Below, one piece after another: positions 468-15,591 of a stretch of 64,000 nucleotides of DNA. The DNA comes from Thermophilibacter provencensis. Its GTDB lineage: Bacteria; Actinomycetota; Coriobacteriia; Coriobacteriales; Atopobiaceae. Made by a program: the position numbers and the translations under genes. Numbering within the stretch: the first letter of the stretch is position 1; each line of letters opens with the position of its first letter. The notes beneath the pieces are model-generated. The model ran no database searches and was not told the origin of the DNA. It was given only the letters and a program-made list of their open reading frames with translations. The DNA lies in assembly GCF_900128445.1 (NCBI RefSeq), contig NZ_LT671417.1, forward strand, positions 1,995,201-2,059,200. Direction: 5' to 3'.

Positions 468-989
468 ATGGCAAGCGACCTCATCGACCTCATCAAGACG
501 CGCAGGAGCGTGCGCAGCTACAAGGCGGACCCCGTCCCCCAGGAGCTGCTCGATACCGTACTTGAGGCGGGCACCTACGCGCCCACGGGCGGCGGGCACC
601 AGTCTCCGGTGATCGTTGCGGTGACGAGCCCCGAGACCCGCGAGCGCCTGCGCGCACTCAACGCCGCCGTCATGGGCAAGGACACCGACCCGTACTACGG
701 CGCGCCGGCCATCGTGGTGGTGCTCGCCGACGGCGAGCGCGGCACCTTCGTGGAGGACGGCTCCTGCGTGCTCGAGAACCTCATGCTCGCGGCGCACGCC
801 GTGGGCCTCTCTAGCTGCTGGATCCACCGCGAGCGCGAGATCTTCGACGGCGCTGAGGGCAAGGCGCTCCTCAGGGAGTGGGGCCTGCCCGAGACGCTGC
901 GCGGCGTGGGAGCCATCGCGCTGGGCTACGCCGACGGCCCCGAGCCCGCCGCCGCCCCGCGCAAGGACGGCTACGTGCTGCGCGTGTAG
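468..989 (+). CDS. Nitroreductase family protein
   Basis: A 173-residue FMN-dependent nitroreductase, expected to be cytosolic and to reduce nitro groups, quinones or related acceptors with NAD(P)H. The N-terminus LIKTRRSVRSYKADPVP is the family's phosphate/FMN-binding RRSVR motif. The middle GAPAIVVVLADG and the C-terminal GVGAIALGYADGPEP strand are also typical. The ATG at 468 is preferred because GGGAGAAGGG precedes it at 451-460 and homology starts there; an upstream open frame has no family similarity. A TATATT -10 candidate lies at 432-437. It is a single gene closed by the hairpin at 1016-1060. The exact substrate is unknown. Confidence 0.88.
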   Translation: MASDLIDLIKTRRSVRSYKADPVPQELLDTVLEAGTYAPTGGGHQSPVIVAVTSPETRERLRALNAAVMGKDTDPYYGAPAIVVVLADGERGTFVEDGSCVLENLMLAAHAVGLSSCWIHREREIFDGAEGKALLREWGLPETLRGVGAIALGYADGPEPAAAPRKDGYVLRV

Positions 990-1015
990 CTCAAACGATT
1001 CACACGTTCCGGAAA

Positions 1016-1060
1016 GGGGCGCTTTGCCGGCAGCATCGATGCTCCCAGCAAAGCGTCCCC
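1016..1060. terminator. Bidirectional hairpin terminator
   Basis: A 12-bp stem with one mismatch: GGGGCGCTTTGC at 1016-1027 pairs with GCAAAGCGTCCCC at 1048-1060. It sits between the convergent nitroreductase and aldo/keto reductase genes. There is no clear U-run, so it is a probable rather than certain terminator. Confidence 0.6.
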
Positions 1061-1075
1061 TGTCCGCCTGCGTCG

Positions 1076-1963
<888 letters not shown>

Positions 1964-2037
1964 CTAATCGCACCGTCCTTTGACCCCACCATCATGCTGC
2001 GAAAAGCGAATGCCGCGCCCTACGCATTCGAGCAGTT

Positions 2038-2058
2038 AGCATGCATAACGTGCATACT
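2038..2058. promoter_or_regulatory. Candidate LysR-type operator
   Basis: An interrupted palindrome, AGCATGCA-N5-TGCATACT, whose core reads AT-N11-AT, the classical LysR-type binding pattern. It lies between the divergent aldo/keto reductase and LysR genes, about 35 bp before the LysR start. Assignment to this regulator is inferred from position. Confidence 0.55.
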
Positions 2059-2090
2059 GAGAAGGACACACCAGAACACGGGAGACGCCC

Positions 2091-2957
2091 ATGACCATCG
2101 AGCAGCTCGAGCACATAGCCTGCGTCGCGCGAACGGGATCCATCTCCCGCGCCGCTGCGGAGCTCCATATGTCCCAGCCGGCGCTCAGCCGCTCCGTACG
2201 ACGGCTCGAGGAGGAGCTCGGTTGCGACCTGTTGCGCCGCACCGCGAACAGCTCGGCACTCACCGAGGCAGGCCGCATCGCGGCGGACTACGCCGACGAC
2301 CTGCTCCGCACCTATCGCCGCATGCGCGACGAGCTGTCCTCGCTCGAGAAGCGCCGCCGCACGCTGCGCGTTGGCACCTGCGCGCCCGCGCCGCTCTGGC
2401 GCGTCACGCAGCTCGTGGTGGAGACCTTGCCCGGCACCATCGTCGCCTCGGAGTCGCTCGACGCGCAGCATTTGGAACGCACCCTCATGGAGGGCACGCT
2501 CGACGCCGCCATCATGCTGCGACCGCTCGCGCTTCCCGGCTTCATCTCGCAGCCCATCATGACCGAGAGCCTCTCGGTGCTCCTGCCGCGCACGCACCCC
2601 CTTGCAACGAAGCGGGCGCTGCGGTTCAGGGACATAGACGGTGAGGCGTTCCTTGTATACGCCAACATCGGCTTCTGGCGCGACGTCGTCGAGCGCGAGC
2701 TGCCGCACGCCACGTTCCTCTGGCAGGACGACCGCTCGATGTTCGAGATGCTGCTCCCGACGAGCGACGCGCTCGCGTTCAGCACGGATGCCTCGGGGCC
2801 GTATACGGCGCACGAGTCCGACGGACTCGACAACCGCGTCACGGTCCCGCTCGTCGACGCCGGCGCCCGCGCCACGTTCTACCTCGTGTACCGCACGAAC
2901 GAGCATGGCCGAGGGCCGGAGTTCATCGAACGCATGCTGCCGCGACTTTCTCACTGA
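2091..2957 (+). CDS. LysR family transcriptional regulator
   Basis: A 288-residue LysR-type regulator. The N-terminal winged helix (residues 1-60: MTIEQLEHIACVARTGSISRAAAELHMSQPALSRSVRRLEEELG) matches the family, with the recognition helix at SQPALSRSVRRLE. Residues from about 90 onward form the periplasmic-binding-protein-like effector domain. It is transcribed divergently from the aldo/keto reductase at 1076-1945 and probably regulates it through the box at 2038-2058. The ATG follows a GGGAGACGCCC stretch. The effector is unknown. Confidence 0.92.
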   Translation: MTIEQLEHIACVARTGSISRAAAELHMSQPALSRSVRRLEEELGCDLLRRTANSSALTEAGRIAADYADDLLRTYRRMRDELSSLEKRRRTLRVGTCAPAPLWRVTQLVVETLPGTIVASESLDAQHLERTLMEGTLDAAIMLRPLALPGFISQPIMTESLSVLLPRTHPLATKRALRFRDIDGEAFLVYANIGFWRDVVERELPHATFLWQDDRSMFEMLLPTSDALAFSTDASGPYTAHESDGLDNRVTVPLVDAGARATFYLVYRTNEHGRGPEFIERMLPRLSH

Positions 2958-2984
2958 GCCGCACGGCGCCGGCCGCTCGGGGCA

Positions 2985-3094
2985 GGCGCCGGATTATGCC
3001 CTCGAAATAACGTACATTTCAGCTAGGCGTTCTTCTCGCCAACTGCGAATACAATTATCGTAACCTTTCAAATGTATGTTATTTTGCCGGCGCC
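2985..3094. repeat. Long interrupted inverted repeat in a 462-bp gap
   Basis: The gap 2958-3419 contains nested arms: GGCGCCGG (2985-2992) pairs with CCGGCGCC (3087-3094), and AAATAACGTACATTT (3005-3019) with AAATGTATGTTATTT (3070-3084), one mismatch. The total length of about 110 bp and AT-rich inner arms resemble a miniature palindromic element. The rest of the gap (3095-3419) shows no gene; it carries the promoter region of the HTH gene at 3420. Confidence 0.6.
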
Positions 3095-3419
3095 CCATAC
3101 ATGTACGCGAAGATATCGCACCGAAGCGACGCATCCTGGACTGCATATGACGTGCCGAGGGCGTACGCCCGACCAAAGCCTCGCAGCCAAAAGAACGGCG
3201 CGCACCTTACCGATTTCTCCAGCTCTTCTCGACGTCCTGCCAGTTGGCGTTGCGCAAACTTATAGCCTGCAGGTAAACGGCTATGTCAAGGACTCTTGAC
3301 ACGCGACTCTTGTCGCCCGGCAAACTTTGACCGGACCTATTGATGGTACGATGCGGCGCGACATGTCATGGTCTGAGCCGTAGGGGTCGCATCGAAATGG
3401 GACGAGAGGAGCGACGGGC

Positions 3420-3761
3420 ATGGAGGCTGGCTCGCGCATACGCAAGCTGCGCCAAGAGGCGAGCATGTCGCCGGACGACCTTGCGGCGCGCGTGTACGTG
3501 AGCCGCCAGATAATCAGCTCCTGGGAGAACAACAAGACCTGCCCGGACGTCCAGAGCCTGCTTCCGCTCTCCGAGATCTTCGATGCGACCGTGGACTCCC
3601 TCATTAAAGGAGATGTGGATGCCATGACCACGACCGCTGACAACGACATCAAGACCATGAAGCTCCTGAGCTACACGATACTCGGATTCCCGCTGCATTG
3701 GGTGCGCGCTCGGATTCGTTGGGGCCTGACGCCACAACCTGCAACGAGTGGCGTTTCCTAA
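3420..3761 (+). CDS. XRE family HTH protein, possibly truncated
   Basis: A 113-residue protein whose first 65 residues form a Cro/CI-type helix-turn-helix (MEAGSRIRKLRQEASMSPDDLAARVYVSRQIISSWENNKTCPD), with the recognition helix at VSRQIISSWE. Relatives of this type usually continue into one or more membrane helices. Here only a short hydrophobic stretch (MKLLSYTILGF) is followed by an unconvincing basic tail, so the C-terminus may be frameshifted. The gene ends 2 bp before a strong hairpin. No target is evident. Confidence 0.72.
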   Translation: MEAGSRIRKLRQEASMSPDDLAARVYVSRQIISSWENNKTCPDVQSLLPLSEIFDATVDSLIKGDVDAMTTTADNDIKTMKLLSYTILGFPLHWVRARIRWGLTPQPATSGVS

Positions 3762-3763
3762 AC

Positions 3764-3807
3764 GGCCATCTACCTGCGGAGATGCAGATATCCGCAGGTA
3801 GATGGCC
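3764..3807. terminator. Strong perfect hairpin terminator
   Basis: A 17-bp perfect stem (GGCCATCTACCTGCGGA with its complement) and a 10-nt loop, followed on the plus strand by TATTTT. It lies between the convergent HTH and alcohol dehydrogenase genes. Its CAGGTAGATG core recurs inside the dispersed element at 32052-32177. Confidence 0.75.
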
Positions 3808-3866
3808 TATTTTCGGTGCTTAGAAAAACGAGGTTGTTGCAGGGCGACAGGGCGAGAAGGACCGTC

Positions 3867-5024
3867 CTACCGGCACTCGGTCAGGATCTGGAACACCTCG
3901 TCGCGGCTCAGCTGCTTGGCGCAGCCGGGCGTGAGAACGCACGTGTCCGCCACGGCGCGCAGCGTCTCGTCGGAGGCGTCTCCGCCGAGCTCGGCAAACG
4001 TGGTGGGCAGTCCCATCTCCGCCGTGAACGCGGCGAGCGCGTCGATGCCCGCCATGGCCGCGGCAAGGTCGTCCTTCTCGGCCACGTTCCAGACTTCGCG
4101 CGCCCAGCGGGCAAACTGCGCGGGCGCCTCGGGCGCCAGGTGGCGGTAGAGCGCCGGGTGGATCACCGCGAGGCCCATGCCGTGGTTGGTGTGGGTGTAG
4201 GCACCGTACTGGTGCTGGATCATGTGCGCCTGGAAGTCCGTGACCTTGCCCACCTTGAGCACGCCGTTCTCGGCCATCGCGGAGTCGTAGACAAGCTCGC
4301 TGCGCGCCGCGAGGTCTTGGTCGTCCTCGGCCACGGCACGCATGCTGCGGATGACGTTCCTCTGGATGGCAAGGTTGATGTCGTCGGTGACGTTGGCCTC
4401 GCGCGGGGTGCCGAAGTAGCTCTCCATGCAGTGCGAGAGCGTGTCGTAGGCTCCGCTCATGAACTGCATGTGCGGCACGGTGAGCGTGAGCGCCGGGTCG
4501 AGGGCTGCCCAACGGGGCAGCGCACCCGCGAAGGGACCCTTCACGTGCGTCTCCTCGTTGGTGATGACGGCGCCGTCGTTCTGCTCGGCGCCGGTGCCGG
4601 AAAGCGTCACGATGCAGGCCATGGGGATGAACTCGGTGGGCATACGGCCGTCTGCGTGCTCGTACTTCTCGATGTCCTCATCGAGGCACGCCTGGGCGGA
4701 GACCACCTTGCAGCAGTCAAAGACCGAGCCGCCGCCCACCGCCAGGATGAAGTCAACCTGCTCGGCGCGGGCGAGCGCGGCGCCCTCCTGGCACTTCTCG
4801 TAGGTGGGATTGGACATGATGCCGCCAAAGTCCACGATGCGCTTGCCGGCCACACGAAGCTTCTCGACCACGTGGTCGTACACGCCGGTCCGCTTGACCG
4901 AGCCGCCGCCGTAGGCGAGAAGGACGGTCTCTCCCATAACGTCGAGCTCGACGTCGAGCGCCCGGTCAACGGCACCCTCGCCGAAGTAGTTCCTCACGGG
5001 GTAGTCATAGGTGAATGCGTTCAT
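3867..5024 (-). CDS. Iron-containing alcohol dehydrogenase (YqhD/BdhA-like)
   Basis: A 385-residue group III (metal-dependent) alcohol dehydrogenase that probably reduces aldehydes with NADPH in fermentation or detoxification. The Rossmann part has the GGGS motif (VGGGSVFD, residues 97-103). The metal ligands fall at D194, H198 (in GAYDTLSHCMESYF), H267 and H281 (HTNHGMGLAVIHP), as in E. coli YqhD. Length is normal. The ATG has an AGAAAGGAAG ribosome site. It is flanked by oxidoreductases and a dispersed repeat element lies upstream of it. Confidence 0.95.
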   Translation of the reverse strand: MNAFTYDYPVRNYFGEGAVDRALDVELDVMGETVLLAYGGGSVKRTGVYDHVVEKLRVAGKRIVDFGGIMSNPTYEKCQEGAALARAEQVDFILAVGGGSVFDCCKVVSAQACLDEDIEKYEHADGRMPTEFIPMACIVTLSGTGAEQNDGAVITNEETHVKGPFAGALPRWAALDPALTLTVPHMQFMSGAYDTLSHCMESYFGTPREANVTDDINLAIQRNVIRSMRAVAEDDQDLAARSELVYDSAMAENGVLKVGKVTDFQAHMIQHQYGAYTHTNHGMGLAVIHPALYRHLAPEAPAQFARWAREVWNVAEKDDLAAAMAGIDALAAFTAEMGLPTTFAELGGDASDETLRAVADTCVLTPGCAKQLSRDEVFQILTECR

Positions 5025-5067
5025 GCTGCTTCCTTTCTGGGATCTACTGCCAACTTGGGCTTGATGT

Positions 5068-5220
5068 TCCGGGTACGTACACCCCGTCTCCGGGTACGCA
5101 CACTGTTGCGTAATTCATGCGGTACCACGCAATCGAATATCCCCAGGTAGGCTGCCTTGCGATAAGAACATCAAACATAGAAATATGTACGTACCCGCGC
5201 GGGAAGTGTACGTACCCGGA
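5068..5220. repeat. Dispersed MITE-like element, copy A (GTACGTACCC ends)
   Basis: The space between the alcohol dehydrogenase and an aldo/keto reductase holds CCGGGTACGTAC and CCGGGTACGCAC on the left (5069, 5090) and GTACGTACCC and GTACGTACCCGG on the right (5187, 5208). The interior (GCGGTACCACGCAAT, CCCAGGTAG, ACATCAA) is colinear with the reverse complement of the element at 32052-32177. Conservation of both ends and interior suggests a mobilised or functional element, not a simple hairpin. Confidence 0.75.
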
Positions 5221-5269
5221 CCATGGCGCATGGCGCCCGCGCAAGACGCCCCCTCCGCAGGCGACGGCG

Positions 5270-6283
<1,014 letters not shown>

Positions 6284-6307: not shown

Positions 6308-7707
6308 ATGCGCGAACAGGGCACGACAGGGGTCGAGAAGAACGCCGGCATGGGCGGGATGCTTGTCGCCATCATCATGGGCGCGCTCATGCCGGGGTGC
6401 GACACCACGATCGTGGCCATAGGCATCCCCGCGCTCATGGACGCCTTTGGGATCGACACGGTGGCCGTCCAGTGGGTCTCTACAGGCTACCTACTCGCGC
6501 TTGCCATTGGGATTCCGGTGGCGGGCTGGCTCGAGCGCGCCCGCGACGGGCGCTTTGCGTGGCTGCTGGGGCTCTAGGCCTTTCTCGCCGGCTCGGTGTG
6601 CTGCATCGCCTCGCCCACGTTGCCCGTCCTCGTGGCGTCGCGCGTGGTCCAGGGCTTTGCGGCGGGCATGCTCATCATGCTCATGACCACGCTGCCCGTC
6701 GAGATGGCGCACGCCCGCGGCCTGATCAACGTGAGCTCCATCATGTCCACCATCATTGCTGCCGCTCTCCTGCGGCCCCATCTTCGGGCCCGTCATCGGT
6801 GGCGTCATCCTCAACTTCCTGAGCTGGCACTGGTTCTTCATCATCAACGTCCCCATCGTGGTCGCGGCCCTCTTTCTGGGCGAGAAGCACGTGGAGGGCG
6901 TACCTCGGCCCGCGGCGCAGGCCCGCCCCTTCGACCCGGTGGGCTTTGTCCTCGTGGCTGCGGGCATCCCCCTTCTGATCTTTGGGTTCACGGAGGCGAG
7001 CCAGGGAGGCGACCTTGCCCGGACGACGGTCACCCTGCCTCTGCTGGGCGGGGTGACCGCGCTCGCGCTCTTCGTGGCATGGCCGCCCCGCCCGCGACCC
7101 GCGCCGCTCGTTCGTGGACGTGACGCTCATGCGCCACCGCTCGGTTCCCACGGCGTCCGCCGCCATATTCATGGCGGGCGTGACGCTCTACTCGGCCCAG
7201 TTCCTGCTGTCGCTCTACTATCAGGAGCTCCTGGGCACGGACGCGCTCGGCGCCGCCCTCATGCTGCTTCCCCAGGGCGTGGGGGCGCTGCTCTCCCGCT
7301 CGCTCGCAGGGCGTCTGACGGACCGCTACGGCGGGCGGGTTGTCGCGGCGGGAGAGTTTGCCGCCACGGCGCTCACCACGGCACCGTTCCTGCTGCTTGA
7401 CCCACACGCCCCGAGCCTGCTCACGGGGACCCTCCTCTTTGTGCGCGGGCTTGCCGTGGGCATGCTCATCGTGCCCATCACCACGGGCTCCTATGTGAGC
7501 GTGCCGGACGACGCCATCCCGGACACCGCTGTCATCGTGCGCATGTTCCAACAGGTGGGCGGCTCGTTCGGCACGGCCGCCGTGGCCGCTATGCTCGCGA
7601 CGGCGGGCAGCCTTCCCGTGGCGTTTGCCGTCGTGGTGCTTGCCTCTGCGCTCGGCGCCGCGGCGGCGCTCACGATGACGCACAAGCGGGCGAGAAGGAC
7701 GTCATAA
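6308..7707 (+). pseudogene. DHA2-type MFS drug exporter, inactivated
   Basis: Reading across three frames gives a complete 14-TM DHA2 (EmrB/QacA-like) exporter. It runs from MREQGTTGVEKNAGMGGM with the typical D-T-T-I-V-x-x-A-I-P motif (CDTTIVAIGIPAL) to a C-terminal hydrophobic domain ending at 7707. A TAG at 6575-6577 interrupts the first frame, which then resumes in phase. The frame shifts near 6765 (before the PIFGPVIGG motif) and again near 7090 (before FVDVTLMRHR). The remains begin a decayed plus-strand block running to about 9,000. Confidence 0.85.
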
Positions 7708-8379
7708 GTCTGGGATGACCTCTACTCGGAGGACGAGAAGGACACCGACCCCACGCTCGCCGACACGGGCCTCTTCCGCTTTGCTGCCAAGGGGGCGCCG
7801 CAGGGCGAGCGTGCGCCCTTCGCCGTGGTCTCAGCGGGCGGCGGCTTTGCCTACGTGGCGGCGATGCATGACTCGTTCCCGCACTGCCTGCACCTGGCAC
7901 GCGCGGGGCTCAACGGCTTCGCGGTCATCTACCGGCCCGACGCCCAGCTCGCCTGCGAGGACCTTGCCCGCGCCGTCTCCTTCATCTTCGCGCATGCCGA
8001 GGAGCTGGAGGTGGATACGGCAGGCTACTCGCTCTGGGGAGGGTCCGCCGGCGCCCGTATGGCCGCCTACGTGGGCGGCTACGGGCCCGCGGCGTTCGGC
8101 GGGGACGAGGTGCCCCAGCCCGCGGCAGTGGTCATGCAGTACACGGGGCACCGGGATCTCTCGGGCGCCGACCCCGCCACCTACGCCTGCGTGGGAGACC
8201 GCGACGGCATCGCCAACTGGCGCACCATGCAGGCGCGCATAGACGAGTTCACGGCGAGCGGCGTGCCCACCGAGTTCCACGTGTACGAGGGGCTCGGCCA
8301 CGGCTTCGGGCTCGGACTCGACACCGTGGCGGAGGGCTGAATCGACGACGCCATCGACTTCTGGTTGGAGCAACGATGA
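7708..8379 (+). pseudogene. Alpha/beta-hydrolase (esterase) remnant
   Basis: The frame follows directly on the MFS stop. It reads DDLYSEDEKDTDPTLADTGLF, an oxyanion-region SAGGGFAYVAAMHD, the nucleophile elbow WGGSAGARMAA and a His-containing GLGHGFGLG, as in acetyl-xylan-esterase-like hydrolases. It has no start codon or signal sequence. It is interrupted at 8338-8340 by TGA at a position that is normally Trp (AEGW-IDDAIDFW), resuming in frame to a stop at 8377-8379. The final TGA overlaps the ATG of the next gene (ATGA), so the original genes were probably coupled. Confidence 0.75.
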
Positions 8380-9077
8380 ACATGACGAGACGGACGTTCT
8401 TCTCGGCAGCGGCACTGGGAATCTCGACATTGGCCGCAGCCTGCTCGCGCGGCACGGACAAGCATCCCGCCGAAGAGAGCACGGGCGACGGGGTACGCGA
8501 GCTCGTAGCCCTGCCCGTCGACGAGGAGGGCCTCGCCCAGCTGGCGACGGGCCACGTGAGCCCCGACCCCTCCACGGTGACAGGCACGATACTCACGGCG
8601 GAGGTGAAACCCCGCACCCCGCAGCGCCTGTTCCTCTGGGGGGAGGGGCGCATGCCGGCGGTCACGGAGCCATCCGCGAGCGGCTACGACCCGGCGGGCT
8701 TCCGCCCCGCCGTTACCTCGGTTCCCGTTCCGGAGGGCACCCCGGTGAAGGGCGCCGTCCTGCTCTGCGCGGGTGGCGCGTTCCTGGTGCGTGCGGACAA
8801 TGCGGACTGCTACCCCACGGCCGAGGAGCTCGCCCGCCGAGGCTATCAGTGCTTCGTGGTGGACTACCGCGTGCGGCCCTATACCCAGGCCGAGGACGCC
8901 GCAATGGCGTCGCTCGCGCCCGAGGAGCAGGCGCTGCTCGTAGGGCTGCACGAGCGCTTCACCGAGCGACTGTCGGAGCTGATGGAGCGGGAGCCGCGGG
9001 CTACCGTAGCGAGGAGAGATGACCCATGGAACTCTACGAGGCAGTCTACCAGCGGCGGACGGTGCGCGAGTTTCTAG
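8376..9077 (+). pseudogene. Chimeric Tat lipoprotein esterase fragment joined to a MarR-like tail
   Basis: The first roughly 180 residues are a Tat lipoprotein (MTRRTFFSAAALG, lipobox LAAACS with Cys23). It then gives the start of an alpha/beta-hydrolase domain (GAVLLCAGGAFLVRADN, GYQCFVVDYRVRPY). Where the nucleophile-bearing half should follow, the sequence changes to SLAPEEQALLVGLHERFTERLSELM, which resembles the C-terminal helix of MarR regulators. The frame then runs into the next gene. This looks like a deletion joining two genes. No catalytic Ser remains, so it is probably non-functional although the N-terminus could still be exported. Confidence 0.6.
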
Positions 9078-9977: not shown

Positions 9978-10661
9978 TCAGCACGTCTTACGGGCTTTGA
10001 GCGCGTGCATGGCAATCGCCCCCAACAGGGCAGAGAGAGCAGCCACGACACCGTGCTGCGCAAGATAAATCGGAAGCGGTGCTTCGGCGGGCAGCACGAA
10101 GGGAGCTCGAAGCGTTATGTAGTCCCAAAGGTGAAGAGACGCAAATTCACAAACGCCAGCGAGAGCGATAACCGCCCAGATGACAAGCCCGACGATGCGC
10201 ACGGGAGAGCGCTTGCCTGCACGAGAAGCGCCGCTTGCCCTAAGGAACGGCGCCGCATGCATCCCCGCATGGAACGGGAAGACCAGAAGCGCAAGGTACG
10301 AGGAGCTCAGATGCGCCGCACGAGCCGCAGTATCAAAGGGCTGCAGCGCGGGGAACAGCCCTGAGAGGACGAGGCCGCTCAAAGCGAGCGACGGCATGAG
10401 GAGCAGCGATGCGCAGGCCATGACGGCAAAGGCGGCGCGCGCTGCGGTCATGCGTCCGCGCCCGAGTGAGCGCAACCACGCTCCGTTGATGGCGAGATGA
10501 GCACCGGCAACGATGACCAGAGCAGCGCCCAGCACCGCATGCAGGTCTTCCGGCATCAGCTGGTAGCCCATCTGGGCGAGAAGGAGACAGGCGAGGGCAA
10601 CGTCGAGGACGCGACGTACGCACCGCCGGCGCTGCGCCCTCTCAGTTAGGAGAAAAACCAT
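9978..10661 (-). CDS. DUF4405-like membrane protein
   Basis: A 227-residue integral membrane protein with about six hydrophobic segments and paired His residues in membrane context (DLHAVLGAALVIVAGAHL, FPFHAGMH). This pattern fits DUF4405/cytochrome-b-like proteins that may bind haem. The ATG at 10661 lies inside the end of the upstream esterase gene (16-bp overlap), so it is the last gene of the five-gene operon starting at 14074. A role in passing electrons to exported flavin or metal lipoproteins is inferred only from context. Confidence 0.72.
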   Translation of the reverse strand: MVFLLTERAQRRRCVRRVLDVALACLLLAQMGYQLMPEDLHAVLGAALVIVAGAHLAINGAWLRSLGRGRMTAARAAFAVMACASLLLMPSLALSGLVLSGLFPALQPFDTAARAAHLSSSYLALLVFPFHAGMHAAPFLRASGASRAGKRSPVRIVGLVIWAVIALAGVCEFASLHLWDYITLRAPFVLPAEAPLPIYLAQHGVVAALSALLGAIAMHALKARKTC

Positions 10662-11527
10662 CGCATGATCTCCTCGTCGTGGGCGAAGAGGTAGCCGCCG
10701 GCACCGTGCTGACCGACGTCCTCGGAGAAGCCGTGCTCCGCGAAGTAGCTCGTCGGCTTGACATCGAGCACTACGAGCTCGTCGATTCGGTCCTCGGAGA
10801 GCCCCCGCGCGCGGTACGCGTCGCAGATGCGGGCGTACGCCTCGCGGGCGGGCTCGGGCCCGTAGTAGTCGTCCTTCTCGCCAATGGCCATGTAGACGGG
10901 GACCTCTGCCTGCACGAGCGCCTCGATGTTGCCGTCCCAGCACGAGATGGTGTGGAGCGCCCGGCGGTAGAGCTCCGGGCGCGTGCCCAGCACGATCGAG
11001 ATGGTCTCCCCGCCGCCCGAGCAGCCGGAGAGGTAGACCCGCTCGGGGTCCACGCTGTAGGCGCCGAGGAGCCACTCGGTGAGCTCGATCACGTCCGCCG
11101 CGGACCGCTCGCCCCAGTCGTCGAGCTGCAGCGAGGCCACGATCATGTCCGGCACGTAGCCGTTGGCCACGAAGGGATAGTCCTCCTGCAAGTTGGCGCC
11201 CACGCCCTGGAAGTAGAGCCCTTCCCAGCCAGGGCAGGCCACGTAGAGGGCGTAGGGCGCGGACCCGTCGTAGGCGTCCGGCACGTGGAGCGAGAAGTGC
11301 AGCGTGCGCCCGGACGGCGTCTGCAGGGCGTCGTCAACGACGAAGCCGCGGTCTGTCTGCGACCCCTCCGTGAGGACGTAGCCGTCAAGCTCACGGACAT
11401 CCGCGGCCTCCCCGGGGCCTGAATCGCCACCTCTCGACGCCACCGAATCCTCCACTGCAGAGCATCCGGTAAGAGCAAGGGGCGCAGAGGTGGCGAGTGC
11501 AAGGAAAGTCCTTCTCGTGACATTCAC
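10646..11527 (-). CDS. Tat-exported lipoprotein, alpha/beta-hydrolase (esterase-like)
   Basis: A 293-residue protein with a twin-arginine signal (VNVTRRTFLALATSAP, RR at 5-6) and lipobox LTGC (Cys22), so it should be anchored outside the membrane. The mature part is an alpha/beta-hydrolase with a nucleophile elbow LSGCSGGGE (Ser within G-C-S-G-G), YVACPGW before it and a C-terminal His region (GQHGAGGY). GTG at 11527 is chosen because GGAGG precedes it and it overlaps the upstream gene by 4 bp (GTGA). Substrate unknown. It lies in the redox lipoprotein operon. Confidence 0.85.
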   Translation of the reverse strand: MNVTRRTFLALATSAPLALTGCSAVEDSVASRGGDSGPGEAADVRELDGYVLTEGSQTDRGFVVDDALQTPSGRTLHFSLHVPDAYDGSAPYALYVACPGWEGLYFQGVGANLQEDYPFVANGYVPDMIVASLQLDDWGERSAADVIELTEWLLGAYSVDPERVYLSGCSGGGETISIVLGTRPELYRRALHTISCWDGNIEALVQAEVPVYMAIGEKDDYYGPEPAREAYARICDAYRARGLSEDRIDELVVLDVKPTSYFAEHGFSEDVGQHGAGGYLFAHDEEIMRWFFS

Positions 11528-12540
11528 GCCCCAACCTCCACGAGCCGGTAACCGCGGCTGCCCAGCCCGATCTTCTCGGCGTGCTCGAGCACGTGCTCGC
11601 CGCCCAGGCTCTCGATGCGCCCGATGAGGTCGGCCGAGTCGTCGTCCGAGCTGTAGACGAGGTCGACACAGGCCTGATCGAGTGCCACCGGGTCGGCGCT
11701 CGCCAGAATCCCGATGTCGGCCATCTTGGCGGGCGCGGGGCTGGAGTCGCAGTCGCAGTCCACGCTCAGGTGGTTCATCGCGTTCACGAAGAGGATGTTG
11801 CCGCCCACGGCGTCCACCACGGACTTGGCCGCCTCCGCCATGCACTCCTGGAAGGCCGCCGTCTCGCCGCCCCAGGGGCTGTCGTGGCTCCGGCCGTCCG
11901 TGTGGATGAGGCACTTGCCCTCGCGCGATGCCATGCCGATGGAGATGTTCTTGAGCGCCCCGCCAAAGCCCGCCATCGCGTGCCCCTTGAAGTGCGAGAG
12001 GACGAGAAACCCGTCGTACTCGGGAAAGTGCGCGCCCACGAGGTTCTCCGTGAGGTGCTCGCCTCCCTCGACGGGGATGGAGGCGGAGCCGTCCTCGTCC
12101 ATGATCTGGACGTCGGCGATGCCGGTGTAGCCGTGCTCGGCCGCCACCTCCAGGTGGTGCGCGGTCTCTCCGCGCTCGCCGCCATAGGCCGTGTTGCACT
12201 CCACGATGGTCCCGTCCACGGCGCGCACGAGGCCGGAGATGAGCTCCGGGTCGAGCGGGTTGCTCCCGGGCTCGCCCGTGGAGAGCTTCACGCCCGTGCG
12301 CGCGCCCGAGAACGAGGTCCCCAGCGCGTCGAAGACGGCCTGCATCGCCTCGGGGCTCACGTCCCGGACGAGGTAGACCGCGGGCTCCGTGCCGCCGGGC
12401 TCCGCGGCGCGGCCCTCGTGGGCGGCGTCGTCGACCTCGCCCTGCGGCATGGCGCCGTTTGAGCAGGCGGCAAGCCCCGTCGCGGCGAGCGCCGCCATGC
12501 TCACGAACGCCCGGCGCGTAAGGTGGTTCTCTCGTGCCAT
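11524..12540 (-). CDS. DUF362 domain Tat lipoprotein
   Basis: A 338-residue protein with a Tat signal (LTRRAFVSMAALAATG, RR at 9-10) and lipobox LAAC (Cys26). The mature part is a DUF362 domain: AYGGERGETAHHLEVAAEHG, a conserved HFKGHAMAGFGGALKNISIGMASREGK block and DIGILASADPVALDQACVDLV. DUF362 proteins occur with Fe-S or flavin partners, but their reaction is not established and no ferredoxin motif is present. ATG at 12540 follows GAGGAGG. The 3' end is coupled (GTGA) to the esterase gene. Confidence 0.85.
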   Translation of the reverse strand: MARENHLTRRAFVSMAALAATGLAACSNGAMPQGEVDDAAHEGRAAEPGGTEPAVYLVRDVSPEAMQAVFDALGTSFSGARTGVKLSTGEPGSNPLDPELISGLVRAVDGTIVECNTAYGGERGETAHHLEVAAEHGYTGIADVQIMDEDGSASIPVEGGEHLTENLVGAHFPEYDGFLVLSHFKGHAMAGFGGALKNISIGMASREGKCLIHTDGRSHDSPWGGETAAFQECMAEAAKSVVDAVGGNILFVNAMNHLSVDCDCDSSPAPAKMADIGILASADPVALDQACVDLVYSSDDDSADLIGRIESLGGEHVLEHAEKIGLGSRGYRLVEVGA

Positions 12541-12564
12541 CAAAGGCCTCCTCGTCGCTGCTTC

Positions 12565-13206
12565 CTATAGGCCAAGGCCAGACGCCCAGTCGCGGACCTC
12601 GGACTCGTCCGCGCCGGACGAGAAGCGCTGGCCCTCCTGCCACTCCCCCGTGCCCGCCGCCTGGGCCAGGAGCTCGCCGGAGCGGCCGAGGCCCGAGGAC
12701 GCGGAGGTGCAGAACGGGATCGCCGTCTTGCCCTCCCAGTCGTTTCCGGTGACGAAGCCGCCCACCGGCCACGCCGCGATACCCCACCAGATGGGGTAGC
12801 CCACGAACACAGTGTCGTAGTCCTCCCAGCCCTCGGGCGTGACCCGCTCGAGCGGCACGTCGCGCAGGCTCTCGTCGTCGTGCTCGCGGCTCACGCGGCT
12901 GTCGGGGTTGTTCCAGTTGAGGTCGTCGTCCGTGTAGGGCTCCGTCGGCGCGATCTCAAAGAGGTCTGCGCCGAGCTCGTCGGCGATGGTCTGTGCCACG
13001 GACTCGGTGTGGCCCTGCGCGGAGTAGTAGGCAACGAGGACGCTGCCGCCCGCAGCGCCGCCTGCCGGTGCGTCCTCGACGGCGGCCGGCTCATCGGCGG
13101 CCTCGGCGTCATCCTGCCAACCGCCGTCACAAGCGGTGAGCAGCGCGGCGAGCGGTACTGCGGCCACGGCCGCCCTCAGGAAGTTGCGACGCGTCATGAT
13201 GCTCAT
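12565..13206 (-). CDS. Tat lipoprotein flavodoxin
   Basis: A 213-residue protein with a Tat signal (MTRRNFLRAAVAAVPLAALLTAC, RR at 6-7, lipid Cys26) followed by a flavodoxin fold. SVLVAYYSAQGHTESVAQTIA is the FMN phosphate loop, DYDTVFVGYPIWWG the second loop and AIPFCTSASSGLG the third. It is an extracytoplasmic flavodoxin, an arrangement found in anaerobic Coriobacteria and Clostridia. ATG at 13206 was chosen by its GAGGGGAT ribosome site and because the signal starts there. It is the second gene of the operon, after the aldo/keto reductase. Confidence 0.9.
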   Translation of the reverse strand: MSIMTRRNFLRAAVAAVPLAALLTACDGGWQDDAEAADEPAAVEDAPAGGAAGGSVLVAYYSAQGHTESVAQTIADELGADLFEIAPTEPYTDDDLNWNNPDSRVSREHDDESLRDVPLERVTPEGWEDYDTVFVGYPIWWGIAAWPVGGFVTGNDWEGKTAIPFCTSASSGLGRSGELLAQAAGTGEWQEGQRFSSGADESEVRDWASGLGL

Positions 13207-13225
13207 GAGAATCCCCTCTCTGTCC

Positions 13226-14074
13226 CTAGTCCTGGGCGTCAAAGTTGGGGCGCGTCGCCAGATAGCCCAGGAGCTGCGCCTTGTTGGCCTTGTAGTACTG
13301 CTTGGTGCCGTCAAGCCGGGCAATCTCGGCCATCTCCCCGTCGGTGAGGGCAAAGTCGAAGATGTCCGCGTTGTCCGCGATGTGCGCGGGGTTCTTGGAG
13401 CCCGGGATCACCGAGGTGCCCATCTGCGTGTGCCAGCGCAGGATGACCTGCGCGGCGGACTTGCCGTACTTCTCGGCCAGGCGCTGGAAGACGCCCTCCT
13501 GCTGCAGACCGGCGTCGCCGTGGCCGAGCGGGTACCATGCCTCGATCACGGTGCCGTAGGGCTCGAGGTACGCGCGCAGGTCGCGCTGCTGGTGGTAGGG
13601 GTGGCACTCCACGGTCACCAGCTGCGGCGCCACCTCCGCGCGCTCGATGACCTCGGCGATCTTGTCCTGGGGGAAGTTTGAGAGGCCGAGCGCGCGGACC
13701 TTGCCGGCGCGGTAGGCGCGCTCCATCGTCTCCCAGGCGGCAAGGTAGTCCCCGACGGGCTGGTGGAGGATGAGCATGTCAACGTAGTCGAGCCCCAGGC
13801 GCGCCAAGGTGGAGTCCACGGCGGCGTCCCCCGCCTTGTAGACGCTCGGCCACAGCTTGGTGGACACGAAGATCTTCTCGCGCGCGATGCCGCTCTTGGC
13901 GATGGCGCGGCCCACGGCCCGCTCGTTCATGTAGGCGTTGGCGGTGTCGATGTGCTCGTAGCCCGCGGCCAGCGCCGCCGTCGCCGCTGCCTCGGCCTCC
14001 GCCGGACTCATGAGGAAGGTCCCCAGGCCCATCACGGGCATCCGCACGTCGTTGCTGAGCTTCAGGTACTCCAT
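13226..14074 (-). CDS. Aldo/keto reductase
   Basis: A 282-residue aldo/keto reductase with tetrad D43, Y48 (DTANAY), K73 (STKLW) and H104 (LILHQP), and SVIPGSKNPAHIADN replacing the usual IPKS phosphate motif. ATG at 14074 has a GAAGGGA ribosome site. It is first gene of the minus-strand operon that continues with the flavodoxin, DUF362, esterase and DUF4405 genes. It is divergent from a LysR gene across 135 bp containing an AT-N11-AT box, which makes LysR control of the whole operon likely. Confidence 0.93.
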   Translation of the reverse strand: MEYLKLSNDVRMPVMGLGTFLMSPAEAEAAATAALAAGYEHIDTANAYMNERAVGRAIAKSGIAREKIFVSTKLWPSVYKAGDAAVDSTLARLGLDYVDMLILHQPVGDYLAAWETMERAYRAGKVRALGLSNFPQDKIAEVIERAEVAPQLVTVECHPYHQQRDLRAYLEPYGTVIEAWYPLGHGDAGLQQEGVFQRLAEKYGKSAAQVILRWHTQMGTSVIPGSKNPAHIADNADIFDFALTDGEMAEIARLDGTKQYYKANKAQLLGYLATRPNFDAQD

Positions 14075-14156
14075 GTTTGCTCCCTTCGTTTGGCTCTTCT
14101 CGACACTGACTCTACGGGGCCGGGCGCCGCACGAGAAGTTCACGTTGGAATGGGGG

Positions 14157-14175
14157 ATATAACCCCTGGGTATAT
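14157..14175. promoter_or_regulatory. LysR-type box
   Basis: ATAT-N11-ATAT with a symmetrical ACCCCTGGGT centre. It lies 35 bp before the LysR start and about 85 bp before the aldo/keto reductase start. The spacing matches the T-N11-A signature of LysR-type regulators. Confidence 0.65.
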
Positions 14176-14209
14176 ACTGACGAGAAGAACCCGAGGGACG
14201 GGAGCGCCC

Positions 14210-15094
14210 ATGTACAACCCGCAGCTCGACACCTTCATCCGCGTGGCCGAGGCCGGCAGCTTCTCCAAGGCGGCGCAGGACGCCTTCATCACGCCCACCG
14301 CCGTGATCAAGCAGATGAACCTCTTGGAGTCGCGCCTGGGGCTCACGCTGTTCCGCCGCTCCCACCAGGGCCTCTCGCTCACCAAGGCCGGCGAGAGCCT
14401 GCTCAAGGACGCGCGCCACATCGTGCGGTACTCGCAGGAGTCCGTCGCCCGCGCCCGCATGGCGGAGCGCGCCGAGAAGCGCGTAATCCGCGTGGGCGTC
14501 TCGCTCATGACGCCGTCGACGCCGCTCGCGAGGCTATGGCCCCGCGTGAAGGAGCGCTGTCCCGGGATGAGCCTGCAGGTCGTGACCTTTGAGAACGGGC
14601 CCGAGGCCGCACGCGGCCTCGCCGACCTAGGGCGGGACATGGACGTCGTGGTGGGCGTCTTCGACGACAACTTCCTCGCCGAGCACGGCTGCGCCGGGCT
14701 CGAGCTCTCCCGCGAGCCACTGTGGTGCGCGGTGCCCGTGGGAGGCGAGCTGGGCGCGCTCGACATGGTGACGCTGGACGCGCTGCGCGGCCACGACCTC
14801 CTGCTCATCCGGCGCGGCTGGAACGCGGACATCGACGCCCTGCGCGACCGCATCCACGCCGACTGCCCGGACGTCCGCGTTGAGGACTTCCCGCAGTACC
14901 GCGCCGAGGTCTTCAACCGGGCGGCAAACGAGGACCTGGCCCTGGCCACGCTGCCCGTCTGGCGCGACGTGCACCCGCTGCTGCGCACGGTCCCCACCGA
15001 CTGGGGCGTCACCGTGAGCTACGGCGTGCTGCACGCGCCCGAGCCGGCTCCGCACGTCGCGGAGTTCCTGGACGCGGTGCGGGCGGTGGCATAG
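14210..15094 (+). CDS. LysR family transcriptional regulator
   Basis: A 294-residue LysR regulator. The winged helix spans residues 1-60 (DTFIRVAEAGSFSKAAQDAFITPTAVIKQMNLLESRLGLTLFRR), followed by a linker helix and an effector domain with the usual beta-strand RVIRVGVSLMTP. ATG at 14210 follows GGGACGGGAG. It faces away from the redox lipoprotein operon and is its probable regulator. The effector domain gives no clue to the ligand. Confidence 0.92.
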   Translation: MYNPQLDTFIRVAEAGSFSKAAQDAFITPTAVIKQMNLLESRLGLTLFRRSHQGLSLTKAGESLLKDARHIVRYSQESVARARMAERAEKRVIRVGVSLMTPSTPLARLWPRVKERCPGMSLQVVTFENGPEAARGLADLGRDMDVVVGVFDDNFLAEHGCAGLELSREPLWCAVPVGGELGALDMVTLDALRGHDLLLIRRGWNADIDALRDRIHADCPDVRVEDFPQYRAEVFNRAANEDLALATLPVWRDVHPLLRTVPTDWGVTVSYGVLHAPEPAPHVAEFLDAVRAVA

Positions 15095-15234: not shown

Positions 15235-15591
15235 TCATCTGCGCGGCATGTGCTCCGCGCCCCAGACGCAGAGGCCGTCGAGCACCACCATGAGCGAGTC
15301 CCCCAACGACGTGAGCGAGTACTCCACGCGCGGGGGGATCTGCGGGTACTCGCGGCGCGCCACGAGCCCGTCGCGCTCGAGCTCCTTGAGGTTGGCCGAG
15401 AGCGTCTTGTCGGCAATGCCACCCAGGTAGCGCCGCATCTCGTTGAAGCGCACCGGCTCGTACTCCATGAGGCAGTAGGGGATCGCCATCTTGTGCTTGC
15501 CCTGGATGAGCGAAAGCGTGTAGCTGTAGGCGGTGTCCTGAAACCGCGCTTCGGTGATGTCGCCCGCGGCCGCCGCGTTCTTCTCGCCCAT
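15235..15591 (-). CDS. HxlR family transcriptional regulator
   Basis: A 118-residue winged-helix protein of the HxlR group: LIQGKHKMAIPYCLMEYEPVRFNEMRRYLGGIADKTLSANLKELERDGLVARREYPQIPPRVEYSLTSLGDSL is close to the family consensus, with the recognition helix ADKTLSANLKELE. Such proteins often sense redox or electrophiles and control neighbouring oxidoreductases; no Cys is placed as a clear sensor here. ATG at 15591. A palindromic repeat lies in its 5' region, and the MarR gene at 15715 is divergent from it. Confidence 0.9.
   Translation of the reverse strand: MGEKNAAAAGDITEARFQDTAYSYTLSLIQGKHKMAIPYCLMEYEPVRFNEMRRYLGGIADKTLSANLKELERDGLVARREYPQIPPRVEYSLTSLGDSLMVVLDGLCVWGAEHMPRR

Follow-up and report, generated by a model that had tools for sequence, protein, structure and literature searches.

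A LysR-linked gene cluster of Thermophilibacter provencensis suggests a reductive-defence operon with a cytosolic and an exported arm

Thermophilibacter provencensis is likely a gut bacterium. The 64,000-nucleotide stretch of its contig NZ_LT671417.1 analysed here (positions 1,995,201 to 2,059,200; hereafter the window) contains five close-packed minus-strand genes and a divergently oriented gene for a LysR-family regulator. We explain these genes best as a LysR-inducible operon for reductive defence, in which a cytosolic aldo/keto reductase (AKR) would form one arm and an exported cytochrome-flavodoxin system the other, a reading that we rate at about an even chance. It is favoured by the coupling of the flavodoxin gene with that of a membrane protein, the histidines and helices of this membrane protein, the twin-arginine translocation (Tat) signals, the duplication of the whole cluster together with the same operator-like site, and the recurrence of AKR, alcohol dehydrogenase (ADH) and LysR genes around related flavodoxins.

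According to this proposal, the operon would be activated from a shared operator when the LysR protein senses its inducer, which probably belongs to the aldehydes, quinones or aryl compounds. The AKR would reduce carbonyls with NAD(P)H in the cytosol. The DUF4405-like membrane protein would accept electrons from a donor in the cytosol or the membrane and pass them via two haems b to the flavodoxin on the outer side. The latter would receive its flavin mononucleotide (FMN) while still in the cytoplasm, would cross the membrane in folded form through Tat and would be held there by its lipoprotein anchor. It would then reduce an outside acceptor, either the adjacent DUF362 lipoprotein with its predicted LarA fold or a small molecule. 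The ester cleaved by the esterase-like lipoprotein would be part of the same compound or located close to it. The gene set may perhaps serve to reduce or detoxify an environmental chemical.

Organization of the operon and export signals

Transcription on the minus strand would run from 14074 to 9978 through the genes for the DkgA-like AKR (13226..14074), the Flavodoxin_4 protein (12565..13206), the DUF362 protein with a predicted LarA fold (11524..12540), an esterase-like alpha/beta-hydrolase with a GTG start (10646..11527) and the DUF4405-like six-helix membrane protein (9978..10661). Along this order the genes are separated by gaps of 19 and 24 bp and then overlap by 4 and 16 bp, so that co-transcription as a single operon is likely. 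A terminator scan gave one terminator-like site, located within the membrane protein gene at the end of the series, and shuffled sequences gave more such sites than the real one. The LysR-family regulator (14210..15094, plus strand; Pfam HTH_1 66.9 bits, LysR_substrate 34.9 bits) diverges from these genes, in agreement with the LysR-linked gene set proposed in a previous sequence-only reading of the window.

The family assignments rest on Pfam scores of 160.3 bits for the AKR (Aldo_ket_red), 130 bits for the flavodoxin and 149 bits for the DUF362 protein (cut-off 24 for each of the last two), and 33.9 bits for the hydrolase (Peptidase_S9, cut-off 22.6). No export signal was seen in the AKR. 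The flavodoxin, DUF362 and hydrolase proteins each begin with a TRRxF motif followed by a lipobox cysteine (LTAC, LAAC and LTGC, respectively), and TatC is encoded in the genome; at the level of signals, the three Tat lipoproteins recognized in that earlier reading are therefore confirmed.

The membrane protein and its coupling to the flavodoxin

DUF4405 proteins have been described as possessing six helices and four central histidines, with haem b binding demonstrated for one member, and apbE-DUF4405 clusters often also hold flavinylated Flavodoxin_4 proteins (Huang et al., 2024, PMC11334425). In the window protein H41, H55, H117 and H131 were invariant among all 17 aligned proteins, the window protein included, and the AlphaFold2 model displayed six long helices (predicted local distance difference test, pLDDT, 88.9). 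By analogy, the membrane protein is a probable di-haem b cytochrome. The structural search VIA returned haem A synthase (Z 10.1 and 9.5), cytochrome b561 (8.4) and STEAP1 (7.9) for this model; these matches were left out of the evidence because they were mixed with unrelated helical bundles and fell under the advised Z of about 13.

The gene of the membrane protein was found in 37 of 140 family genomes, a sample that includes the genome of T. provencensis itself, as does the genus sample of 31 genomes. Neighbourhoods were counted by tblastn or by profiles; the gene caller under-calls genes in AT-rich loci. A flavodoxin gene lay on the same strand within 250 bp in at least 24 of the 40 places where the membrane protein occurs in these 140 genomes, and within 3 kb in at least 29; in 11 of the 40 there was no flavodoxin within 3 kb among the matches listed. 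The link between the two genes is thus tight, and their frequency as immediate neighbours is far above the expectation for a random pair. These results support the core of the sequence-only reading, a haem-like DUF4405 membrane protein with paired histidines that feeds an exported flavodoxin, although haem binding is predicted here by analogy and the direction of electron flow would be that of the proposed mechanism.

That reading had also stated that no described pathway matched the cluster, a view that no longer holds because DUF4405 haem b cytochromes accompanied by extracytosolic Flavodoxin_4 proteins were described in 2024 (PMC11334425). The system of Huang et al. shares with the window a Flavodoxin_4 protein beside a six-helix, four-histidine protein of the DUF4405 type and a predicted transmembrane electron flow to an extracytosolic flavin. 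In contrast, the T. provencensis system has no ApbE match in its genome and no flavinylation insertion in its flavodoxin; it has a Tat lipoprotein signal, and AKR, DUF362, esterase and LysR genes stand alongside. A search of open-access PMC articles gave nothing relevant to the combined cluster beyond PMC11334425.

The operator-like site and the second genomic copy

The cluster is present twice in the genome, which measures 2.63 Mb and is 99.5% complete. The second copy (locus L035:8522-14689), the counterpart of 9978-15094 in the window, has the order LysR-AKR-flavodoxin-ferredoxin-DUF362-esterase-membrane protein. Its additional gene, located between those of the flavodoxin and the DUF362 protein (L035:11204-11998), encodes a ferredoxin of the EFR1 family (159 bits, cut-off 75) and is missing from the window copy. 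DNA identity between the copies was uneven, reaching 90–99% in the DUF362 core and 99–100% in parts of the esterase gene (per 90-base block) and dropping to 61% overall in the membrane protein gene, which suggests local gene conversion.

A block of the divergent spacer at 14132..14177 was kept in both copies, while much of the remaining spacer had diverged. It contains, at 14159-14173, a box that conforms to the T-N11-A pattern of LysR-type regulators and, at 14155-14177, the arrangement GGATATAACC-N3-GGGTATATAC. A search of the genome for this arrangement with up to three mismatches returned only two matches, which are the two copies, and the reversed control returned none. The AT-N11-AT box pointed out in the sequence-only reading is present at 14159-14173 in the conserved block, but by itself it is a weak indication, as 18% of shuffled versions of the 135-bp spacer also contain one; the operator candidate therefore stands on the conserved block and the pattern limited to two sites. 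The block is a probable LysR operator, predicted from its conservation, through which the regulator would bind and control the operon. A LysR gene scoring at least 150 bits with the profile of the window regulator was detected in 19 of 80 flavodoxin loci from public genomes (described below), as compared to none of eight control stretches (127 kb).

Just past the LysR gene, at 15235-15591, lies a gene for an HxlR-family regulator, whose best NCBIfam model was the RrpA redox regulator (120.7 bits, cut-off 185).

Conservation and gene neighbourhoods

Among the 140 family genomes, the flavodoxin was found in at least 118 (E 1e-8), the DUF362 protein in 81 (E 1e-20) and the esterase in only six (E 1e-10). 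The esterase gene adjoins a flavodoxin gene in all four foreign genomes examined; a fifth case, a fragment in G077, was left out. In one genome (G120) AKR, flavodoxin and esterase genes and a second flavodoxin-membrane protein pair lie within 14 kb, where DUF362 does not occur, and in another (G043) a membrane protein-flavodoxin pair, an ADH and an esterase-flavodoxin pair are all found within 14 kb.

Public genomes were scanned with the flavodoxin alignment, and the best 80 of at least 592 loci were analysed (1.05 Mb); by title they were mostly from Clostridia, and many end at contig edges. With score thresholds of our own choice for the partner families, the membrane protein was found in 17 of these loci (with scores of just 44–73 bits in five of them), the esterase in 14, DUF362 in 9, the AKR in 37, the ADH type in 23, the LysR type in 19 and EFR1 in 7. 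The flavodoxin, membrane protein, esterase, AKR, ADH, LysR and EFR1 families all stayed below the same thresholds in the control of eight stretches (127 kb). The control is small, and four of its stretches hold DUF362 genes (two were chosen for DUF362 and two for larC beside DUF362), so that DUF362 was omitted from the comparison. All five families of the operon occurred together in one of the 80 loci. A Lachnospiraceae contig (L075) displays AKR, flavodoxin, esterase and membrane protein genes in the same order as the window, and locus L091 has AKR, flavodoxin, DUF362, esterase and membrane protein genes within 14 kb.

The flavodoxin is thus the hub of these neighbourhoods in Coriobacteriia and Clostridia, and the cytochrome, esterase, DUF362, AKR and ADH genes are modules that join it in varying combinations. 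Among the family loci examined, the set of five was contiguous only in T. provencensis, subsets being the rule; dissociation of the genes in relatives, which the sequence-only reading had named as the outcome that would speak against it, is what was found for the complete set, whereas the pairing of flavodoxin and membrane protein is better kept. The partners that recur around the flavodoxin in Coriobacteriia and Clostridia provide a candidate set that can be tested as a unit.

Several observations weigh against a defence operon with an exported cytochrome-flavodoxin arm. Within the genus the membrane protein is present in only one of the 31 genomes, that of T. provencensis itself. Four of the five DUF362 loci read in genus-mates have a flavodoxin next door without the membrane protein or the esterase; as these relatives keep the exported flavodoxin and DUF362 without it, the cytochrome is not a required partner. 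The membrane protein does not reach the curated cut-off of DUF4405 (PF14358, 26.7 bits), with 22.2 bits for the window protein and 23.5 bits for its paralogue, and is therefore named DUF4405-like; homologues in L053, L075 and L046 do pass it (36.0, 40.0 and 26.9 bits, respectively). A Foldseek search with its model gave nothing decisive, the best match having an E value of 0.32. A search of the genome for ferrochelatase returned no match, which implies that haem must be imported if the cytochrome works. Finally, 29 of the 80 flavodoxin loci lack all seven partner families.

The last point also favours the strongest alternative, a stress-response island in which the genes share their regulation but have separate functions. 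The AKR and the esterase would then deal with different toxic compounds, the flavodoxin would be an exported reductase of quinones or nitro-compounds, and the membrane protein would be unrelated to it. The partners are indeed freely shuffled, as illustrated by the single locus with the complete set among the best 80, and the region from 0 to 15 kb of the window also has nitroreductases, AKRs, an ADH and seemingly broken transporter and hydrolase genes. Against an island of this kind stand the flavodoxin and membrane protein genes, which are immediate neighbours in the majority of places, and we regard it as possible, though clearly less probable than the two-armed operon.

Two further types of neighbours were noted. 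In L046:6304-7542 and L052:7527-8258 an FGE-sulfatase domain is fused to a Flavodoxin_4 domain, and the genes that follow downstream encode another flavodoxin with a Tat signal and the DUF4405-like protein. In several relatives a gene for a MerR-type regulator stands beside the flavodoxin/DUF4405-like pair, at L039:8147-8605 (the only one of the three tested with Pfam), L063:2331-2789 and L052:9729-10187.

The DUF362 lipoprotein

Another alternative is that the electrons of the flavodoxin go to the DUF362 lipoprotein itself, or to its metal centre, with the membrane protein as an optional addition. The genus-mate loci with a flavodoxin and DUF362 alone point in this direction, as do three more genus-mates (G086, G092 and G097) in which the coordinates place DUF362 beside a flavodoxin without the membrane protein or the esterase. 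The three invariant cysteines of DUF362 (C262, C264 and C291) and the EFR1-family ferredoxin inserted between the two genes in the second copy are also consistent with it. However, a flavodoxin lies within 1 kb of DUF362 in only six of the 17 loci read outside the T. provencensis genome, where some contigs are short, and this alternative is considered unlikely.

The predicted structure of the DUF362 lipoprotein provides a more specific lead. The AlphaFold2 model (pLDDT 83.6, with residues 1–49 mostly of low confidence) gave 12 top VIA matches with Z of 14.3-16.1 and a root-mean-square deviation of 2.9-3.5 over 197-219 residues, the next match falling to 5.0, and 11 of these 12 were titled lactate/malate racemase or LarA-like. 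With Foldseek, 17 chains were retrieved at E of 0.001 or lower, 16 of them lactate/malate racemase or LarA-like and the other (4nar) an unnamed Thermotoga protein; TM-scores against these chains were modest (0.36-0.44 by query length). The protein, to which the sequence-only reading had assigned no role, is accordingly predicted from its model to adopt the fold of LarA, the nickel-pincer racemase. This fold is unsurprising, since both families, DUF362 and LarA, belong to the same Pfam clan (PMC11770544).

In an alignment of 18 proteins H187, K197, H213 and the three cysteines were invariant. The spacings of H187-K197-H213, 10 and 16, equal those of H174-K184-H200 in LarA, with 17 instead in one of the 18 (L036), as judged from a comparison of spacings only. 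The same spacing is seen in Mar2 (K181/H197), GntE2 (K164/H180) and LarAIp (H173/K183/H199) (PMC7583248, PMC11851776, PMC11770544). For H108 of LarA, no invariant histidine was found at the expected distance, although the proteins were not aligned residue by residue. Comparison of the DUF362 sequence with solved structures, by single sequence or by profile, retrieved no LarA chain; weak profile matches were obtained with Lar_N (E 0.027) and malate racemase (E 0.032). The link between DUF362 and LarA therefore rests on the predicted fold, these weak matches, the residue spacing and the gene context. Regarding the last, one family genome (G035) has a larC–DUF362–larE–larB cluster (L160:4017-8155) in which LarB, LarE and LarC exceed their curated cut-offs, and a second (G034) has DUF362 between larC and larB (L161:4829-8285). 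This context suggests that a branch of DUF362 is linked to the nickel-pincer cofactor.

In these two clusters DUF362 occupies the place where larA might be expected, and the loop in that branch is one residue longer.

From these similarities it might be proposed that the rest of the operon serves the DUF362 lipoprotein, which would then act, after export, as a nickel-pincer hydride-transfer enzyme of the LarA type. LarA-type structures were the sole strong matches of the model, the histidines and lysine are at LarA spacings and, as mentioned above, DUF362 lies among lar genes in relatives. On the other hand, a search for larC (PF01969) found no match in the T. provencensis genome, where larB and larE were not searched, nor in 29 of 30 genus-mates; larC is likewise missing from 11 of the 24 family genomes with the window type of DUF362. 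Compared with the LarA racemases, which it resembles in predicted fold, H-K-H spacing and Pfam clan (PMC7583248, PMC11851776, PMC11770544), the window protein differs by being a Tat lipoprotein, by its weak sequence matches, by the lack of a larC match in its genome and by the lack of an identified equivalent of H108. A nickel-pincer role is thus a lead for the DUF362 family but is unlikely in this organism, for which no larC was found, and the proposal of an operon built around such an enzyme is decidedly improbable.

A broader and slightly less improbable version, which we still hold to be unlikely, would see DUF362 as a so far unrecognized part of the LarA superfamily that carries out hydride transfer on the nickel-pincer or a similar tethered cofactor; its Tat-lipoprotein branch would act extracytoplasmically with electrons from flavodoxin and cytochrome b neighbours. 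If this were true, it would represent a class of extracytoplasmic redox enzymes not yet described in the open-access PMC literature searched. In that literature only the LarA-superfamily paper was relevant to DUF362 and nickel, and the invariant H187/K197/H213 spacing was not found in print. For DUF362, a family without known function, the predicted LarA fold, the LarA-like H-K-H spacing and the place in a nickel-pincer biosynthesis cluster of a relative constitute a concrete and testable lead.

DUF362 proteins were also present in five of 14 control genomes. In five genus-mate loci (L065, L066, L067, L068 and L070) DUF362 has a long C-terminal extension, assigned by Pfam to Cyclophil_like2 in L068, the sole one tested; in four of the five the adjoining gene encodes a flavodoxin.

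Flavin attachment

The solved structures nearest to the flavodoxin by sequence are 4ici and 3klb, the latter a Bacteroides fragilis protein with non-covalent FMN (PMC11334425). They share with the window protein the Flavodoxin_4 core, to which the latter adds a Tat lipoprotein signal before the domain. In the phosphate-loop region S62, G65 and T67 were invariant in 18 of 18 aligned proteins. The beta1-alpha1 insertion, in which the flavinylation site lies in published cases, is lacking in the window protein and present in four of the 18, and a flavinylation-like motif, searched with a pattern of our own, was not found in the window flavodoxin. ApbE gave no matches in the 99.5% complete genome of T. 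provencensis, while the same search was positive in seven of 14 known control genomes. Because no ApbE was found, the flavinylation insertion is absent and a Tat lipoprotein signal is present, the flavodoxin probably binds FMN non-covalently, would be loaded in the cytoplasm and would be exported folded by Tat.

The idea that the flavodoxin is instead flavinylated by ApbE, as in the published DUF4405 clusters, draws on the distribution of ApbE in the family (uncorrected for phylogeny). Among the 37 genomes that have the membrane protein, 29 encode ApbE and eight lack it, as compared to 24 with ApbE among the 103 that do not have the membrane protein (53 of 140 in total). For this organism the missing ApbE match, insertion and motif contradict the idea, leaving it with hardly any probability. 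The published link between ApbE and DUF4405 may hold elsewhere in the family. What is described of extracytosolic flavodoxins in PMC11334425 ties them to flavinylation; a second route to a working extracytosolic flavin is suggested here, in which the flavodoxin binds its cofactor non-covalently and passes through Tat already folded.

The reductases, the esterase and neighbouring genes

The best NCBIfam model of the operon AKR was DkgA, with 228.6 bits against an equivalog cut-off of 425, and the protein is therefore named DkgA-like. An ADH encoded at 3867–5024 in the window matched best, below the equivalog cut-off, the model PRK15138, which we take to be that of E. coli YqhD. In E. coli the corresponding regulator, YqhC, is of the AraC type. 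Two further DkgA-like AKRs (1076–1945 and 5270–6121) were also below their equivalog cut-offs. The yqhD-dkgA genes of E. coli are up-regulated when aldehydes are present (PMC6115493). The window resembles the YqhC-YqhD-DkgA system in having DkgA-like AKRs and a PRK15138-type ADH in one region with dedicated regulators, and differs from it by a LysR protein in place of YqhC and by the exported redox arm. Mainly because of these enzymes and of the aldehyde-responsive E. coli genes, an aldehyde or electrophile response appears, by family analogy, the most likely function of the operon.

In the esterase-like lipoprotein S170, D219 and H274 were invariant in six of six aligned proteins and form a putative Ser-Asp-His catalytic triad. 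In its comparison with solved structures the matches were mostly repeat proteins without a significant stretch, which were regarded as noise; esterase matches such as 3wyd (E 1e-5) ranked below them.

The two further AKR genes and the ADH gene belong to a second group of reductase genes at 468-6121, composed of a nitroreductase, the two DkgA-like AKRs and the iron-type ADH, together with another LysR gene (2091-2957). Between this group and the operon, at 6308-9077, genes for an EmrB-like transporter of the major facilitator superfamily and for alpha/beta-hydrolases are seemingly broken into several frames. Beside the second copy, in L035, the hydrolase homologues are open, and part of the transporter gene is present at the edge of the locus.

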